A stretch of DNA of 64,000 bases from an archaeon. GTDB taxonomy: Archaea; Thermoproteota; Nitrososphaeria; Nitrososphaerales; Gagatemarchaeaceae. The translations under genes and the position numbers were made by a program. Below the pieces are notes generated by a model. It did not search any database and was not told the DNA's origin. It worked only from the letters and a program-made list of their open reading frames with translations. Where the stretch lies: positions 128,448-192,447 of the forward strand of contig JAKASK010000001.1 of the NCBI GenBank assembly GCA_021819105.1. The letters run 5' to 3'. Each line of letters begins with the position of its first letter. Position 1 is the stretch's first letter. Shown here one piece after another: positions 7,919-29,171 of this stretch.

Positions 7919-8882
7919 CTTCCCTGAGAAGGCGCATCTTCTCTTCGAGTGCCCCCCTCGTGGGGCTCCCCCTCGTCTCGGCGCTGGCCGCCTTCAGAGC
8001 TCCGGAGAGGTTCCCCCACTCTGCAGCCTCCCGGGGCTGCAGTCCGAAGAGGGAGTAGCAGGCGTAGGCCGCCAGGAAGGCGTCCCCTGACCCGGTGCTG
8101 TTGACCGCCGCGAGGCCCAGGTCTGCCAGGTCCACCGGCGCTACCCGCGACACAGAGCCGCCTGCGGCCACGAGGCACCCCTCAGGTCCCAGGGTGGCTA
8201 CCACCGTGATCCCTTCGTGGCGTTGTAGCAGGGCCTCGACCCCCTCCTCAGGATCGCTGCGCCCGCTCAGCTTCGCCAGCTCGATCCTGTCCAACACGAG
8301 GTCGTCGGCCCTGGAGAGGATCGACGCCAGCCGCTCCTCCTGGCCTGCCCCCCTTACCCCCGGGCAGTAGACGACCCTCGACTGCTTGGACGCACCCTCG
8401 GCCGCCGCCTCGGCGGCAGCCAGCGGAAGGTCCATGATCACGGTGACGGCGGAAGCCGACAGGATGGCGGCCGAGGCGGGGTTCCGCAGGAACCTGGGCT
8501 CGTAGGCCTCGTTTGCCCCAAAATGCGTGTGGATGGTCTTCCTCCCGGCGCCGTCGACGACAATCATCGCCCTGCCCGTGGCTGCCCCCTTGATGACCTC
8601 GACCCCGTCGGTCCTGACCCCCTCGGCCGCGAGGCTCTCGAGGAGCTCCCCCTTCACCTGGTCGCTCCCAAGGGCGCCGAGGAAGGCCACGGCTCCCCTC
8701 CCAAGGATCCTGGCCGCGGCGACAGCGGTGTTCGCCCCCTTCCCTCCCGGGAACTCCTCGAGCCTGACGACCGGGACCTCCTCCCCGGGGGAGGCGAAGT
8801 CATGCTCGAAGACGGTGGTGTCCCAGTTGATGGCGCCGAGCACCGCGACCTCGACGGCCCTGCGCGGAGGCTGCGTTGCCAT
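7890..8882 (-). CDS. PfkB-family kinase, ribokinase-like
   Basis: This protein of about 330 residues resembles ribokinase more than its convergent neighbour does. GAINWDTTVF opens the fold, FPGGKGANTAVAAARI near residue 45 is the first PfkB signature, and NSTGSGDAFLAAYA near residue 265 holds the catalytic Asp. It phosphorylates a sugar or nucleoside using ATP. A longer open frame runs upstream into proS, but that part is out-of-frame proS sequence; the ATG at 8882 lies 11 nt after the proS stop and is preferred. It is co-directional with proS and probably co-transcribed. Confidence 0.85.
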   Translation of the reverse strand: MATQPPRRAVEVAVLGAINWDTTVFEHDFASPGEEVPVVRLEEFPGGKGANTAVAAARILGRGAVAFLGALGSDQVKGELLESLAAEGVRTDGVEVIKGAATGRAMIVVDGAGRKTIHTHFGANEAYEPRFLRNPASAAILSASAVTVIMDLPLAAAEAAAEGASKQSRVVYCPGVRGAGQEERLASILSRADDLVLDRIELAKLSGRSDPEEGVEALLQRHEGITVVATLGPEGCLVAAGGSVSRVAPVDLADLGLAAVNSTGSGDAFLAAYACYSLFGLQPREAAEWGNLSGALKAASAETRGSPTRGALEEKMRLLREVRGRRQGSR

Positions 8883-8893
8883 GGCCGGCCCGC

Positions 8894-10351
8894 CTAGTAT
8901 GACCTGCCGTAGAGGGCGAAGGTGGGCGCGTCCCTCCCGCAGGCGAGGCAGACCCCCTTCGTGGGCTTCTGGTCCAGGGGGACGTTGAGGATTTTGCCGC
9001 CGGCTGCTTCCTTCATCGTCGACTCGCACTTCACGTCGCCGCACCACCTCACCCGGACCATCCCTCCCTTCGCGGAGAGGGTCTCCTTCAGCTCGGCCAG
9101 GGTGCCGGCGTCCCTGGTGTTCTCTGCGAGGAACGCCGAAGCCCTCTGAAGTAGGCTGGCCTGGATCGACTCGAGCTCCTTCGACACTTCAGCGGCCAGG
9201 GACGACAGCTTGACGGAGCGCTTCGCCCCGGTGTCCCGCCTGACCATGACCGCCTGGCCCTCCTTCATGTCTCTGGGGCCGAACTCCACCCTCAGTGGCA
9301 CTCCCTTGAGCTCCCACTCGTTGAACTTCCGCCCAGGGGTGAGGTTGTCCCTGTCGTCGAGGCGGGCCCTGAACCCGGCGAGGGCTCCCATGAGCTTCCT
9401 GGCTTCGGCGAGGACCGCCTCCTTGCTTTCGTCGTTCACTATGGGCACCACCACCACCTGGATGGCGGCGAGGCGCGGAGGGACCACCGCCCCTCTGTCG
9501 TCGCTGTGGGTGGCCAGCATCACCCCGATCTCCCGGGTCGATATGGCCCAGGTGTTCTGGTATGCGTACTGCTTGTTCCCCTCCCTGTCGATGAACACGA
9601 TGTTGAACGCCTTCGAGAAGTTCTGGCCGTCCGAGTGCCAGTCCGGCCCCTGTATCGCCTTGCCGTCCGGAAGGAGGTGCTCGATGCTGTAGGTCCCCTC
9701 TGCTCCCGCGAACGTCTCGGCCTTGGACTTCTTCCCCAGATAGCCGGGGAGGGCGAGGTACTCTTCCGTGACCTTCCTGTAGATCCCCATGATCCTCTCC
9801 CGCTCCGCGTCCGCCTCCTCCCTGGTCGCGAAGATGGAGTGCCCTTCGTTCCAGAGGAACTCCCTGGACCTGAGTATGAAGGTCGGGTTCTTGGTCTCCC
9901 AGCGGACGACGTTGTTCCACTGGTTCAGCCTCATGGGCAGGTCCCTCCAGGACCTGATCCAACGGCCGACGACCTCGTACATGAGCGACTCCGACGTGGG
10001 CCTTACCGCCAGCCTCTCGTCTAGCTTCGAGCTCCCGGTCTCGGTTACCCAGGCTACCTCGGGCGCGAACCCCTCCACGTGCTCCGCCTCCTTCTTCAGC
10101 AGCCTTTCTGGGATGAACAGCGGGAAGTAGGTGTTGCTGACCCCGTCCTGCTTGAGGAGGGCGTCGGTCTCTTTCTGGATGGCCTCCCAGATGGCATACC
10201 CCAGGGGCCTGTAGACGACGCACCCGGAGACCGGGCTGTAGTCTGCGACCTCAGACTTCAGTATGACCTGGGTGTACCACTCGTCGAAGTCGTCCGCCTT
10301 CCTGGCCGTGATCCCCTCCTGGCTCCCTCCGGACACGCTGGCTGCTGGCAC
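8894..10351 (-). CDS. proS: Prolyl-tRNA synthetase
   Basis: This 485-residue class II synthetase charges tRNA-Pro. Motif 1 region VYRPLGYAIWEAIQ, motif 2 MRLNQWNNVVRWE near residue 150 and the C-terminal zinc-type region with CGDVKCE and CLACGRD, ending in Tyr, are those of the archaeal/eukaryotic-type ProRS. Length is normal for that type. The start is GTG at 10351 or the second GTG at 10336; a TATA-like CATTAAG around 10365 lies about 29 nt before 10336 and would favour the shorter form. Confidence 0.96.
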   Translation of the reverse strand: MPAASVSGGSQEGITARKADDFDEWYTQVILKSEVADYSPVSGCVVYRPLGYAIWEAIQKETDALLKQDGVSNTYFPLFIPERLLKKEAEHVEGFAPEVAWVTETGSSKLDERLAVRPTSESLMYEVVGRWIRSWRDLPMRLNQWNNVVRWETKNPTFILRSREFLWNEGHSIFATREEADAERERIMGIYRKVTEEYLALPGYLGKKSKAETFAGAEGTYSIEHLLPDGKAIQGPDWHSDGQNFSKAFNIVFIDREGNKQYAYQNTWAISTREIGVMLATHSDDRGAVVPPRLAAIQVVVVPIVNDESKEAVLAEARKLMGALAGFRARLDDRDNLTPGRKFNEWELKGVPLRVEFGPRDMKEGQAVMVRRDTGAKRSVKLSSLAAEVSKELESIQASLLQRASAFLAENTRDAGTLAELKETLSAKGGMVRVRWCGDVKCESTMKEAAGGKILNVPLDQKPTKGVCLACGRDAPTFALYGRSY

Positions 10352-25795: not shown

Positions 25796-26773
25796 TCACC
25801 CGAGGGCGCCTGCCGAGGCCGTGCTTGTGGAAGCGCTCCCCTCTTCGGCTGGCTTGATGTACGTCTCGTAGGTGTCGTAGTACCTGCCGTAGCCCACCAC
25901 GCCGTTGTGGTTCACGTCAAACGTCGGGACTTCGATGTAGAGGTCGCCGCCGCTGTCTGAGGAAAGCGTGAGCATCGGGATCGCGTTGGTAGGCGGAGAT
26001 TGGAGGGACGCCGGACCGGCGATGGACAGCCCGTCCGGGATCCGATAGATGCTCCCGTGGCAGGGGCACTGATAGGTCTCGTTTGTGGGGTTGGAGGACT
26101 TCTCTGGGTCGTAGTTCGGGCTGCACCAGAGGTGGACGCAGACTTTGCTGAAGGCAACGAAGGCATCCACGGCGGGCTTGTCCCCTCCCAGCTCGGCGGG
26201 CAGCCTGATGAGCTGCCATTTGACGAAGGTATCGGGGTTCTGGGAGTCGACGGTGAGGTCGCCGGACGATGGATAAGTGACGAGCCAAGAAGAGTTGGGA
26301 GGATACGTGGCGAGGTCGTTGATGTTGACCGCCTTGCCCGAGCCGGCGCCGTTCACCGGGTTGATGTCGGTCACGACCTTCTGGCGCTTGTAAGATCCGG
26401 TCCCAGAGACGGAGGATGAGAGGTACTGGCCCCACGGAACGTAGGGGATTATTGCGAGCGCGGCGCCCAGAACCAGCATCCCCTTGAGGAAGCTCCTTCT
26501 CCCCGAACCGCTTGGCGCCTGAGGACGGGAGGGCGGAGTCACTGGAGGCCTGGGAGGCGGAGACGCGACCTGCGGTTCCGACGCTGAGATCGGAGCGACC
26601 GGCGTGACTGGAACCGGGTCGCGCTCCGCGGTCGCTGGACCACGGACTGATTGAGCCCGCGCTGAACGGCCCCGTCCCGCGCCCCACGCAGCTCCATTGT
26701 TCGCCCCTCCGGCTTGCACCGCTCTTCGATGGCCGCCTTCTTTTCGCCGAGTCTGCTGTGCGGGACGCTCCAC
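25796..26773 (-). CDS. Rieske iron-sulfur protein with Tat signal
   Basis: The protein carries both cluster-binding boxes, CVHLWC and CPCHGSIY, with the disulfide Cys residues present, so it holds a Rieske [2Fe-2S] cluster used in cytochrome bc-type electron transfer or a related oxidoreductase. A twin-arginine signal (SGRRSFLKG, then a hydrophobic helix) sits near residue 95 after a long Pro/Arg-rich cytoplasmic tail (PPPRPPVTPPSRP). The GTG at 26773 has a GGTGAGG Shine-Dalgarno 8 nt upstream. The frame is also open to a TTG at 27007, 32 nt from the TATA box, which would add 78 residues of unconvincing sequence. No cytochrome b gene is adjacent. Confidence 0.88.
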   Translation of the reverse strand: MERPAQQTRRKEGGHRRAVQAGGANNGAAWGAGRGRSARAQSVRGPATAERDPVPVTPVAPISASEPQVASPPPRPPVTPPSRPQAPSGSGRRSFLKGMLVLGAALAIIPYVPWGQYLSSSVSGTGSYKRQKVVTDINPVNGAGSGKAVNINDLATYPPNSSWLVTYPSSGDLTVDSQNPDTFVKWQLIRLPAELGGDKPAVDAFVAFSKVCVHLWCSPNYDPEKSSNPTNETYQCPCHGSIYRIPDGLSIAGPASLQSPPTNAIPMLTLSSDSGGDLYIEVPTFDVNHNGVVGYGRYYDTYETYIKPAEEGSASTSTASAGALG

Positions 26774-27035
26774 ATGGGCGCCCTCACCGGCCTCTTTCGC
26801 TGACCTGTTGTAGGCTGTCAAACCAACTTCATCCGCTTCTAGGCGAGGCCCTCCTTTCCCTCGGTCAGTCAGCCTCTCCCCAGATACGAATCCACGGTTC
26901 CGGCAGATCAGTTCGCCGGCACCGGCGTAGGGAATAAGCGAGCGGATACCATGTCTGGAGGGCCTCGTGCGCGAGCATCGGAGCCCCTCCGTTCTTGAGA
27001 GAGTCAACCTATCCGTGCGAAAAGCGGATGCGATT
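26774..27035 (-). other. Long leader of the Rieske gene
   Basis: About 240 nt separate the predicted Rieske transcription start (near 27012) from the Shine-Dalgarno-preceded GTG. The frame stays open throughout and could be read from a TTG at 27007, but the translation is low-complexity, Arg-rich and unlike a folded domain, and third-position GC is lower than in the neighbouring genes. It may be an untranslated regulatory leader. I see no clear riboswitch fold. The stretch 27067-27148 beyond the promoter holds nothing I can name. Confidence 0.35.
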
Positions 27036-27043
27036 CTATAATT
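27036..27043 (-). promoter_or_regulatory. TATA box of the Rieske transcript
   Basis: The minus strand reads AATTATAG, a good archaeal TATA box, predicting transcription near 27012. It is preceded at exactly 6 nt by the conserved 17-base box also present before two regulator genes. Confidence 0.6.
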
Positions 27044-27049
27044 GCCATT

Positions 27050-27066
27050 TGGTGCGGATGTCTAAT
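27050..27066 (-). promoter_or_regulatory. Shared upstream box, copy 1 (Rieske promoter)
   Basis: On the minus strand the box reads ATTAGACATCCGCACCA. The same 17 bases occur, identical, before the Lrp-like gene (28784-28800) and with four changes before the winged-helix regulator (28094-28110). In all three the box ends 6 nt before the TATA element, the usual position for an activator or a BRE-overlapping regulator. Confidence 0.7.
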
Positions 27067-27148
27067 CATCCGCTCGACATCATGCCTTGGCGCTCTTGCG
27101 TACGGGGAGCCACAGGACGCTAGCTGCGGGGCAGGCGGTCCCAACCGG

Positions 27149-27466
27149 CTAGCTTCTGACCACAGCCAAGAAGAAGAACAGGAGCGTCACAAAGTCGAGG
27201 CCCCCTCTGAGCAGGTCTACTACGTCCAGAGAAAGGGAGGGGAACAGTAGCGAAAGATTCTCGACCACGAGGACCCTCGCAAGAAACACGACGAACGCGC
27301 CCGAAACGAACAGCAGTCTCGTCGACTTGTTCCTCCCGTACGCCGTCAGTGAGATGACGAGCAGTATGAGAGCGAACCCCGCGACTACCAGCCTCACTCC
27401 TACCAGGAGGCTGATAGAACCGAGCAGCCCGAGAGTCTGGAGGACCAAAGGAAGAAGGGCGGGCAT
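27149..27466 (-). CDS. Small membrane protein partnered with a winged-helix regulator
   Basis: This 105-residue protein has three to four hydrophobic helices (about residues 5-24, 28-45, 52-70 and 85-102) with one charged loop YGRNKSTR. I recognise no enzyme motif. The ATG begins 1 nt after the stop of the upstream winged-helix regulator (TGACATG arrangement), so translation is coupled. Pairs of a helix-turn-helix regulator and a small multi-helix membrane protein are common in archaea, where the membrane protein may sense a signal for the regulator; that role is inferred. Confidence 0.75.
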   Translation of the reverse strand: MPALLPLVLQTLGLLGSISLLVGVRLVVAGFALILLVISLTAYGRNKSTRLLFVSGAFVVFLARVLVVENLSLLFPSLSLDVVDLLRGGLDFVTLLFFFLAVVRS

Positions 27467-27467
27467 G

Positions 27468-28040
27468 TCACTCCTCCGATGCCGCTTTCTGAGCTTTGAG
27501 GTCGAGCATCAGCGTCACGTCGTGCATCCTGCTGGCCCACTTCTCCCAAATTGTCGGGTGGTAACGAACGATGAAGTTGATCAGGTCTTCACGTCTTGTG
27601 ATCACTTCGTACGAAACGGACTTCCCCTCCTTCTTTCGCCCCACCACCCCTAGGCGAAGAAGCCTGTCCATGTGCCACCATATGGTCGGCGCCGAAAGCT
27701 TCAGTTCATCCGCAAGTTCCTTCTGTGTGATTCCGGGGCTCCTCGTTATGCACAACAGGATCTCGCGTGGAGTCTCCTGAGTGAGCAACCCTATGAGAAC
27801 TTCCTGCTTCTCTCCGAAGATGTTCGAAGGGAAGATGAACCTGGTGCCGCTTCCCCAGGCCGATATCAGGTCGGCCCTCGTAAGCTTGTTCAGGTGGTAT
27901 CGCAAGTCTCCAGTTGCGATGCCCAGCTCCTTCTCTATTTCGCGCTCGTGGGTGCCAGGGTGAGACTTGATGTAATCGTAGATCTTTCGTCGTACTCCGT
28001 CCAAGCTGATCTCTTCGACTCTACCATCCAGGAATGACAA
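27468..28040 (-). CDS. Transcriptional regulator with two winged-helix domains
   Basis: The 190-residue protein holds two winged-helix units: residues about 14-75 (THEREIEKELGIATGDLRYHLNKL) and 80-150 (ITQKELADELKLSAPTIWWHMDRLL), the second with an ArsR/MarR-like wing (GKSVSYEVI). It probably binds DNA as a dimer. The frame is open to 28121, upstream of its own TATA box at 28080-28087, so that start is excluded. The TTG at 28040 has GGAGAAGG 6 nt upstream and gives an 18-nt leader. The promoter has a divergent copy of the shared box, consistent with autoregulation. Confidence 0.85.
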   Translation of the reverse strand: MSFLDGRVEEISLDGVRRKIYDYIKSHPGTHEREIEKELGIATGDLRYHLNKLTRADLISAWGSGTRFIFPSNIFGEKQEVLIGLLTQETPREILLCITRSPGITQKELADELKLSAPTIWWHMDRLLRLGVVGRKKEGKSVSYEVITRREDLINFIVRYHPTIWEKWASRMHDVTLMLDLKAQKAASEE

Positions 28041-28079
28041 CGCCTTCTCCTTCTGATGCTGGCCCGTGAAGCCGTATTT

Positions 28080-28087
28080 TGATATAT
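28080..28087 (-). promoter_or_regulatory. TATA box of the winged-helix regulator
   Basis: The minus strand reads ATATATCA. It predicts transcription near 28058 and rules out the upstream start at 28121. A variant of the shared box begins 6 nt upstream. Confidence 0.6.
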
Positions 28088-28093
28088 TGATAT

Positions 28094-28110
28094 TGGTGCA
28101 GCAGTCTAAA
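28094..28110 (-). promoter_or_regulatory. Shared upstream box, copy 3 (winged-helix regulator promoter, variant)
   Basis: On the minus strand TTTAGACTGCTGCACCA matches the other two copies at 13 of 17 positions, keeping TTAGAC and GCACCA. Its distance to the TATA box is the same 6 nt. Confidence 0.55.
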
Positions 28111-28215
28111 CGTGCCCCCACTGGCGGCCCCCGCCCGTCATCGACTGACGTCAGGGAAGGAGGCTGCCCCTGGTCCGCGGGTTGAGTGATGAATCTGAAA
28201 AAAGGAGGGTGGGGC

Positions 28216-28740
28216 CTATCGCCAGGTGGGCTGGTAGGCCAGCAGTGTCTCGCTTGTCCGCACCCCGTCCATCTCGGCCACCTTCGAAACCTGGGAAAGG
28301 ACCTCGTCGTGGTTCTTGCCGCTTATGGTCGCGATGATGTCGAATTCGCCGGGTACGGCGAATGCGTTACGGACTTGGGGCTGCTGCTCCAGCAACTGCA
28401 GGATCTTCTCGGACCTTCCCTTGACCTGCAGCATTGCGAGCGCAAGGGAATCGGTGGCCTGGGTGCCCCTGCCTTCTCTTGCGAAGCCCCCGCGGGGGAT
28501 GTATGTTCTTGTCGCTGTGATGCCCTCTATGGCCCGGATCTTGTCAACGAGCTCGTGGACCTGTTCTCGTTCCGCCGCCTTCAATTCGATGGCCAGGTTG
28601 AACCTGCCCACGAGCGGGGAGAAGTAGGTTATCCCCTCGATGGTCTCGAGCTGTTCTGTCACTTTGCTGAGCGACTTTGGTTGGATTGTTGCGATGATGG
28701 TCGTCGGATGCATTTCGGTTTGTGCTTCGATCTGTGTCAT
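28216..28740 (-). CDS. Lrp/AsnC-type protein with two ligand-binding (RAM) domains and no DNA-binding domain
   Basis: The 174-residue protein contains two tandem alpha-beta RAM/AsnC ligand-binding domains: residues about 12-85 (TIIATIQPKSLSKVTEQL, LVGRFNLAIELKA) and 96-172 (LALAMLQVKGRSEKILQL, VPGEFDIIATISG). Each keeps the beta-alpha-beta pattern and the G-x-FD/N core that binds amino acids at dimer interfaces. There is no helix-turn-helix, so it may act by pairing with DNA-binding Lrp proteins. The ATG lies 8 nt after the predicted transcription start. Its promoter carries the shared box. Confidence 0.8.
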   Translation of the reverse strand: MTQIEAQTEMHPTTIIATIQPKSLSKVTEQLETIEGITYFSPLVGRFNLAIELKAAEREQVHELVDKIRAIEGITATRTYIPRGGFAREGRGTQATDSLALAMLQVKGRSEKILQLLEQQPQVRNAFAVPGEFDIIATISGKNHDEVLSQVSKVAEMDGVRTSETLLAYQPTWR

Positions 28741-28770
28741 TTTTCTTCGAGCCGAAGCGGGCCGGCATTC

Positions 28771-28777
28771 TATAATT
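28771..28777 (-). promoter_or_regulatory. TATA box of the Lrp-like gene
   Basis: The minus strand reads AATTATA, within the same AATTATAGAAT as in the Rieske promoter. It predicts transcription near 28748, 8 nt before the ATG. Confidence 0.6.
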
Positions 28778-28783
28778 CACTTG

Positions 28784-28800
28784 TGGTGCGGATGTCTAAT
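28784..28800 (-). promoter_or_regulatory. Shared upstream box, copy 2 (Lrp-like promoter)
   Basis: On the minus strand the box is ATTAGACATCCGCACCA, identical to the Rieske copy over 17 bases, and again ends 6 nt before the TATA box. The bases between box and TATA differ, which argues for selection on the box and not for a recent duplication. Confidence 0.7.
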
Positions 28801-28862: not shown

Positions 28863-29171
28863 TTACGGTGCGTCGCGCTCCGACGGACGGAGTGTTGGGG
28901 CGCGGCCCAGTGAAACGGCGTGCAGGTTCGCACCGCACAGAAGGAGCTTCGCCTTCCTGCTGAGCTTCTTTATCTCGGCCTCCCTTTTCAGAGCCCCGCC
29001 CAGGGAAGACGCTGGCTCCGAGTAGACGACGCTCACCGGGAGCCTCGACCTGGTGTACTTCGAGGCGCGCCCCCTCCTGTGAGCCGCCAGCCTTTCGTCC
29101 AGGTCGACCGTGTATCCGGTGTACAGGCTTCCGTCGGAGCACCTGAGCATGTACACCCAGTAGCGACGCAC
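28863..29171 (-). CDS. GIY-YIG nuclease domain protein (UPF0213 type)
   Basis: This 102-residue protein begins YWVYMLRCSDGSLYTGYT, the GIY-YIG core in its YVYM/YTGYT form, followed by the catalytic Arg region (RLAAHRRGRASKYTR) and an acidic EAEIKKLSRKAK helix with the metal-binding Glu. It is a stand-alone small nuclease family widespread in prokaryotes, often with no defined substrate. The GTG start lies 27 nt after a TTTCTAAC element. A 25-residue tail after the core is poorly structured. Confidence 0.88.
   Translation of the reverse strand: MRRYWVYMLRCSDGSLYTGYTVDLDERLAAHRRGRASKYTRSRLPVSVVYSEPASSLGGALKREAEIKKLSRKAKLLLCGANLHAVSLGRAPTLRPSERDAP

Follow-up and report, generated by a model that had tools for sequence, protein, structure and literature searches.

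A bipartite box six nucleotides from the TATA element as the likely operator of a winged-helix regulator and membrane protein cassette in Nitrososphaerales

An oriented and conserved promoter element, TTAGAY-N3-T-GYACCA-N6-TATA, is present in the archaeal order Nitrososphaerales, and it tracks one family of tandem winged-helix regulators across the order. We describe it from a window of 64,000 nucleotides (contig JAKASK010000001.1 of assembly GCA_021819105.1, positions 128,448 to 192,447) from a member of the family Gagatemarchaeaceae. The element, its TATA spacing and its linkage to a regulator-membrane cassette are shown by the analysis. Our main reading is that this two-gene cassette, composed of the winged-helix protein encoded at 27468-28040 and the membrane protein encoded at 27149-27466, has the box as its operator. 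We regard this as likely, with a probability of about 0.72; binding, the sign of control and the signal are inferred. Archaeal activator sites upstream of the B-recognition element (BRE) were already known, and what appears new is the operator, the cassette and the link to a published copper motif, none of which we found in the literature searched (open-licence papers). Against the main reading stand, among other points, the absence of binding or expression data for the clade of this regulator (clade A) and for the source organism, and the possibility that related regulators share or cross-read sites.

The features concerned, all on the minus strand, are the following.

25796..26690, minus strand: Tat-motif Rieske 2Fe-2S protein (Pfam Rieske), probable regulon member; start codon uncertain, ~26640-26690
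27033..27043, minus strand: TATA of box 1, AATTATAGAAT (plus-strand ATTCTATAATT), six-nucleotide gap at 27044-27049
27050..27066, minus strand: box 1, gene strand ATTAGACATCCGCACCA, identical to box 3; between the membrane-protein gene and the Rieske gene
27149..27466, minus strand: small hydrophobic membrane protein, DUF7471-like, 105 residues, gene following directly on that of the regulator; proposed as sensor or tether
27468..28040, minus strand: tandem winged-helix regulator, HTH_HVO_0163_N + HTH_24 (Pfam); proposed box-binding protein
28080..28087, minus strand: TATA of box 2, ATATATCA (plus-strand TGATATAT), six-nucleotide gap at 28088-28093
28094..28110, minus strand: box 2, gene strand TTTAGACTGCTGCACCA, in the promoter of the tandem winged-helix gene
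28216..28740, minus strand: double-RAM protein, with two ligand-binding domains of the Lrp/AsnC type (Pfam AsnC_trans_reg, two stretches) and no DNA-binding domain; regulon member
28767..28777, minus strand: TATA of box 3, AATTATAGAAT (plus-strand ATTCTATAATT), six-nucleotide gap at 28778-28783
28784..28800, minus strand: box 3, gene strand ATTAGACATCCGCACCA, in the promoter of the double-RAM gene, with the ATG 59 nt away

On the plus strand the box TGGTGCGGATGTCTAAT occurs exactly at 27050-27066 and at 28784-28800, and positions 28094-28110 read TGGTGCAGCAGTCTAAA, which carries four changes. The consensus of the three on the gene strand is TTAGAC-N4-GCACCA, and the TATA elements read on that strand are AATTATAG at boxes 1 and 3 and ATATATCA at box 2. 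The gap between box and TATA is exactly 6 nt at all three sites, its bases vary from site to site, and the BRE falls inside it. An earlier note, made from the sequence alone, had claimed both the two identical copies with a four-change copy between them and the exact 6-nt gap with differing bases, and both claims held on checking. Searching for the box with up to three mismatches gave 2 matches against 0.04 expected from shuffles. A palindromic or inverted-repeat box was considered and rejected, the two halves being unlike and the orientation relative to TATA being constant among the boxes examined.

The source assembly comprises 914 kb and is 65% complete. The pattern TTAGAC-N4-GCACCA occurs three times in it, always within the window, and the reversed pattern does not occur. 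A fourth box with TATA is found on contig C11 as TTAGAC-N4-GTACCA, again 6 nt from its TATA, so that with GYACCA allowed the genome holds four such elements and no reversed one. In a congeneric genome (G019) box and spacing are kept at the promoters of the regulator (TTAGACCACTGCACCA, same spacing) and of the double-RAM gene (TTAGACGTCCGCACCA), with a different N4. Equally spaced boxes precede other genes in three further genomes of the family (G040, G011 and G020). Order-wide the element is TTAGAY-N4-GYACCA-N6-TATA, in which the last N prefers T and an AA lies two to three bases past the box. The spacing also shows when no TATA filter is applied: among 48 boxes gathered in this way, four A/T stand at offset 24 in 62%. 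Outside offsets 21-25 the share is mostly 2-25%, with 29-31% at 16 and 21, and the TATA peak is at offset 22-25.

By a hand count, box plus TATA matched 88 times in 400 genomes of the order, against about 29 matches of the reversed pattern, and 10 times against 1 in the family of the window, where the exact element is present in only 5 of 46 genomes. In AT-rich genomes the box without TATA was no commoner than its reversed control. Plain box counts therefore prove little, and the evidence rests on TATA spacing and gene context. The matches in most genomes of a marine family (f10) look like chance, the exception being one genus (g35) in which the box precedes the regulator. As a separate observation, one locus (L081:7620 and 7786, plus strand) has tandem boxes 166 nt apart, each with its own TATA, before a 148-residue protein without Pfam match; a second locus (L082) resembles this arrangement, one of its copies having a mismatch.

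The regulator gene starts 69 nt past box 2. Its product belongs by score to the Pfam family PF24266 (HTH_HVO_0163_N; 65.9 bits, cut-off 31), and its second domain is HTH_24 (residues 89-133, E 3e-21). The predicted structure (mean pLDDT 80) consists of two winged-helix units and a C-terminal helical tail, and Foldseek returned generic winged-helix matches only. PF24266 has members also in Haloferax, Methanosarcina and Methanocaldococcus; a narrow profile scan found 11 loci in named relatives, which are mostly Thaumarchaeota and include Ca. Gagatemarchaeum. HVO_0163 is mentioned within an acetylome study, and no description of an operator or regulon for this family was found in the literature searched.

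Linkage between box and regulator was seen in several ways. Among 30 loci fetched by regulator homology alone, the exact box was present in 7 (in ~350 nt upstream) and a box with at most one mismatch in 12. For a larger set of 58 upstream regions of homologues, the figures were 17 exact boxes against none in 100 dinucleotide shuffles, and 22 with at most one mismatch against a shuffle mean of 0.08; this set was fetched partly via the box, which leaves the count from the 30 loci as the one free of that bias. The box with TATA and the regulator co-occur in a set of 151 genomes (17/25 vs 20/126, Fisher p = 4e-7), as they do within the family of the window (4/5 vs 6/41, p = 0.006), p values that take no account of genome kinship. 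Furthermore, the 6-nt spacing recurs where the box stands before the regulator gene in further families of the order. In about half of the homologous regulators no box is recognisable in the regulator's own promoter.

The second member of the cassette adjoins the regulator, and the pair (27149-28040) is usually a tight operon in homologues. Of 54 homologous regulators, 38 have an adjoining hydrophobic open reading frame of similar size, and the two frames often touch or overlap; in a second clade (clade B) the membrane gene precedes the regulator gene. The membrane protein of the window scores 18.1 bits (E 0.0029) against PF24283 (DUF7471), below the cut-off of 27, and a clade B partner (L207) passes it with 28.6 bits. 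The profiles of clade A and clade B partners align (hhalign, 95.9%, E 5.5e-9), and since the two groups align despite the sub-threshold score, we treat the protein of the window as a relative of DUF7471 and not as a filed member.

Seven homologues of the sister clade (L200, L201, L204, L205, L207, L208 and L151) have a sister box, TTC...-N4-GTACCA, 6 nt from an A/T-rich TATA-like stretch and before the membrane gene that opens the operon. The genome of one of these (L200) bears a double copy of the published copper motif before a CopC/D gene. A double copy has been reported upstream of copC/D_b of Nitrososphaera viennensis (PMC7785015), and partly on this basis we infer that L200 comes from that organism; its membrane gene and regulator at the copC/D locus match NVIE_014290 and NVIE_014280 by gene order, an identification that is likewise inferred. 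According to Reyes et al. 2020 (PMC7785015), NVIE_014290-014280 are induced by copper limitation and linked to the motif TTCSGSMTTTGWACYANT. That study describes NVIE_014280 as an ArsR regulator whose gene is upregulated and presumably shares a transcript with the motif-bearing NVIE_014290, and in some promoters the motif lies also on the opposite strand. A second paper calls NVIE_014290 a putative cation channel and reports its induction in biofilms (PMC12448741). The gene that we take to be NVIE_014290 (L200:8454-8861, minus strand) encodes a member of the family of membrane proteins that accompany the regulators, and we infer that a role as regulatory partner is more probable than that of a cation channel.

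The published copper motif TTCSGSMTTTGWACYA fits the 6-4-6 frame of the box. Written as TTCSGS-MTTT-GWACYA, it has the same layout, a common proximal half (G-W/Y-ACC/YA), a similar distance to the start codon and a link to an operon with regulator and membrane protein of the families of the window. The two differ in the distal half, which is TTC.G. in the N. viennensis motif and TTAGAY in the box; the copper motif has no match in the source genome, whose own box is a variant. The known targets of the copper motif are copC/D and multicopper oxidase genes, and the published study names no regulator and describes no cassette. At the Nitrososphaera copC/D promoters a box-to-start distance of 60-63 nt is kept, but no clear TATA was seen at the usual offset. 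The first recognition helix is typically MG-xxQYHL in clade A and NG-xLxYHL in clade B, and the distal half-sites differ likewise, a correlation that speaks for one domain per half-site but is confounded with phylogeny.

We propose that a single regulator molecule, or a head-to-tail pair, would read the asymmetric site with one winged helix per 6-bp half; the half-site centres are 10 bp apart, about one helical turn. Bound directly upstream of the BRE, the regulator would help to recruit TFB/TBP and would most likely be activating. The site has the fixed spacing immediately upstream of BRE/TATA that is the criterion for an archaeal activator site, 6 nt at all sites of the window. The membrane protein most likely would sense a condition of the cell envelope, redox and copper status being candidates, and hold or release the regulator. 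The cassette would control its own gene in many genomes, and its further targets would be exported electron-transfer or copper-handling genes varying by lineage. In the source genome these may be the Rieske gene of contig C11, the double-RAM gene and probably the Rieske gene of the window.

Among known systems, EarA of Methanococcus (PMC5512572), which transcription requires, occupies DNA just upstream of BRE/TATA, a placement like that of the box. It differs in having four 6-bp sites, archaellum genes as targets and no reported membrane partner, whereas the box is one bipartite asymmetric site. The second winged-helix domain of the regulator is alike in sequence and fold to the ArsR/MarR metal sensors SmtB, CadC, CzrA and AdcR; these, however, are single-domain dimers with palindromic sites, in contrast to two winged helices per chain and a non-palindromic site.

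The rival that survives best is a repressor site, at which the same protein bound beside the BRE would block TFB until a signal releases the targets. This remains possible: one-component regulators that control their own gene frequently act as repressors, the second domain is similar to repressors of the ArsR/MarR type, and derepression would equally account for the sister regulon being induced when copper is limiting. Against it, archaeal activators usually bind at fixed spacing upstream of the BRE (EarA, Ptr2 and the ara-box, PMC5512572; CsmR by inference, PMC13286277), repressor sites more often overlap TATA/BRE or fall downstream, and in the sister regulon the TATA boxes before copC/D are poor, as activator dependence predicts.

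It is unlikely that some other factor binds the box, for example a paralogue of TFB or a regulator unrelated to this one, and that the winged-helix gene is merely a target. A regulator gene may be a target without its product binding, and box plus TATA occurs without a detected close homologue in G090, G119 and G011 (53% completeness). However, box and winged-helix family co-occur across families, most box-bearing genomes of family f2 hold more distant members of the regulator family, some of them adjoining the box, the sister clade has a sister box, and no different regulator was seen travelling with the box. That the three boxes are copies of one duplicated promoter segment without continuing function is very unlikely: boxes 1 and 3 agree at all 17 bases and have AATTATAGAAT in common, but the six-base gaps before TATA are not alike, box 2 keeps the spacing despite a different N4 and TATA, and site and spacing are conserved in other genera and families.

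We return to the reading of the box as operator of the regulator-membrane cassette, a pair that is widespread and uncharacterised and to which the evidence points as the effector of the box, binding being inferred. A bolder version, which we put forward tentatively and with the odds slightly against it, is a family of membrane-coupled, one-component two-gene systems distributed across the order to which the ammonia-oxidising archaea belong. Every clade would have its own bipartite operator at a fixed TATA distance, with a shared GYACCA half and a clade-specific distal half; the family would set the make-up of the envelope electron-transfer and copper machinery, and would include the unidentified regulator of the archaeal response to copper limitation. 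Reyes et al. left the regulation of the Cop genes open, and a candidate is now the tandem winged-helix gene beside copC/D together with its membrane partner. In this order, which includes soil and marine ammonia oxidisers, few known operators have a candidate regulator assigned to them, and the sequence rule derived from the box predicts targets in many genomes.

Concerning these targets, the earlier note had suggested a small regulon joining a respiratory Rieske protein to two regulators, possibly bound by the winged-helix product. Co-occurrence of box and regulator supports the latter, direct binding being inferred; the regulon is supported but was drawn too small, the cassette being order-wide and including the membrane protein at 27149-27466. 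The genome-wide search for box plus TATA that it proposed, once run, added the one site on contig C11. Neither finding that it had named as refuting, random spacing at unrelated promoters or lack of conservation in relatives, was obtained: the box with TATA follows the winged-helix gene, and other families keep it at 6-nt spacing.

Its assignment of box 1 to the Rieske promoter held only in part, as box and TATA are real but the gene probably starts ~320-370 nt past the TATA. GC3 drops from ~0.8 to 0.47 upstream of ~26640 and Rieske orthologues begin near there, which gives a leader of ~320-370 nt; both GC3 and the length of the orthologues led us to reject a start directly after the box. Because the box is absent at 26 other loci of relatives of this protein, it is the least certain assignment. 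The Rieske and double-RAM genes were both rejected as core members, their orthologues in other genomes lacking the box (for double-RAM, with G019 as the only exception), and we consider them lineage-specific members. A small GIY-YIG endonuclease-like gene (28863-29171, minus strand) adjoins the double-RAM promoter on its upstream side.

The Rieske link is weaker for the gene of the window and strong for the second Rieske gene, on contig C11. There, and in G020, the regulator-membrane pair is directly followed by the box, and the gene of a membrane-anchored Rieske protein starts 53-55 nt further on. The pair on contig C11 (L093, ~8184-10076, minus strand) is the second of the source genome, with the second Rieske gene, preceded by its box, as the next gene; no recognisable box was found in the pair's own promoter. 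In G045, boxes differing by one base (ATAGAC) flank the regulator-membrane pair and precede two exported proteins. Other box-bearing genes encode the regulator itself, a ferredoxin, CopC-CopD fusions, NHL propellers, CHRD, a secreted-repeat protein and a response regulator. One fusion (L154:2907-5756, plus strand) is a protein of 949 residues joining CopC, CopD and a Vgb-lyase-type propeller, 52 nt past its box, and the copC/D gene of N. viennensis (L200:11718-14684) is likewise long, with 988 residues.
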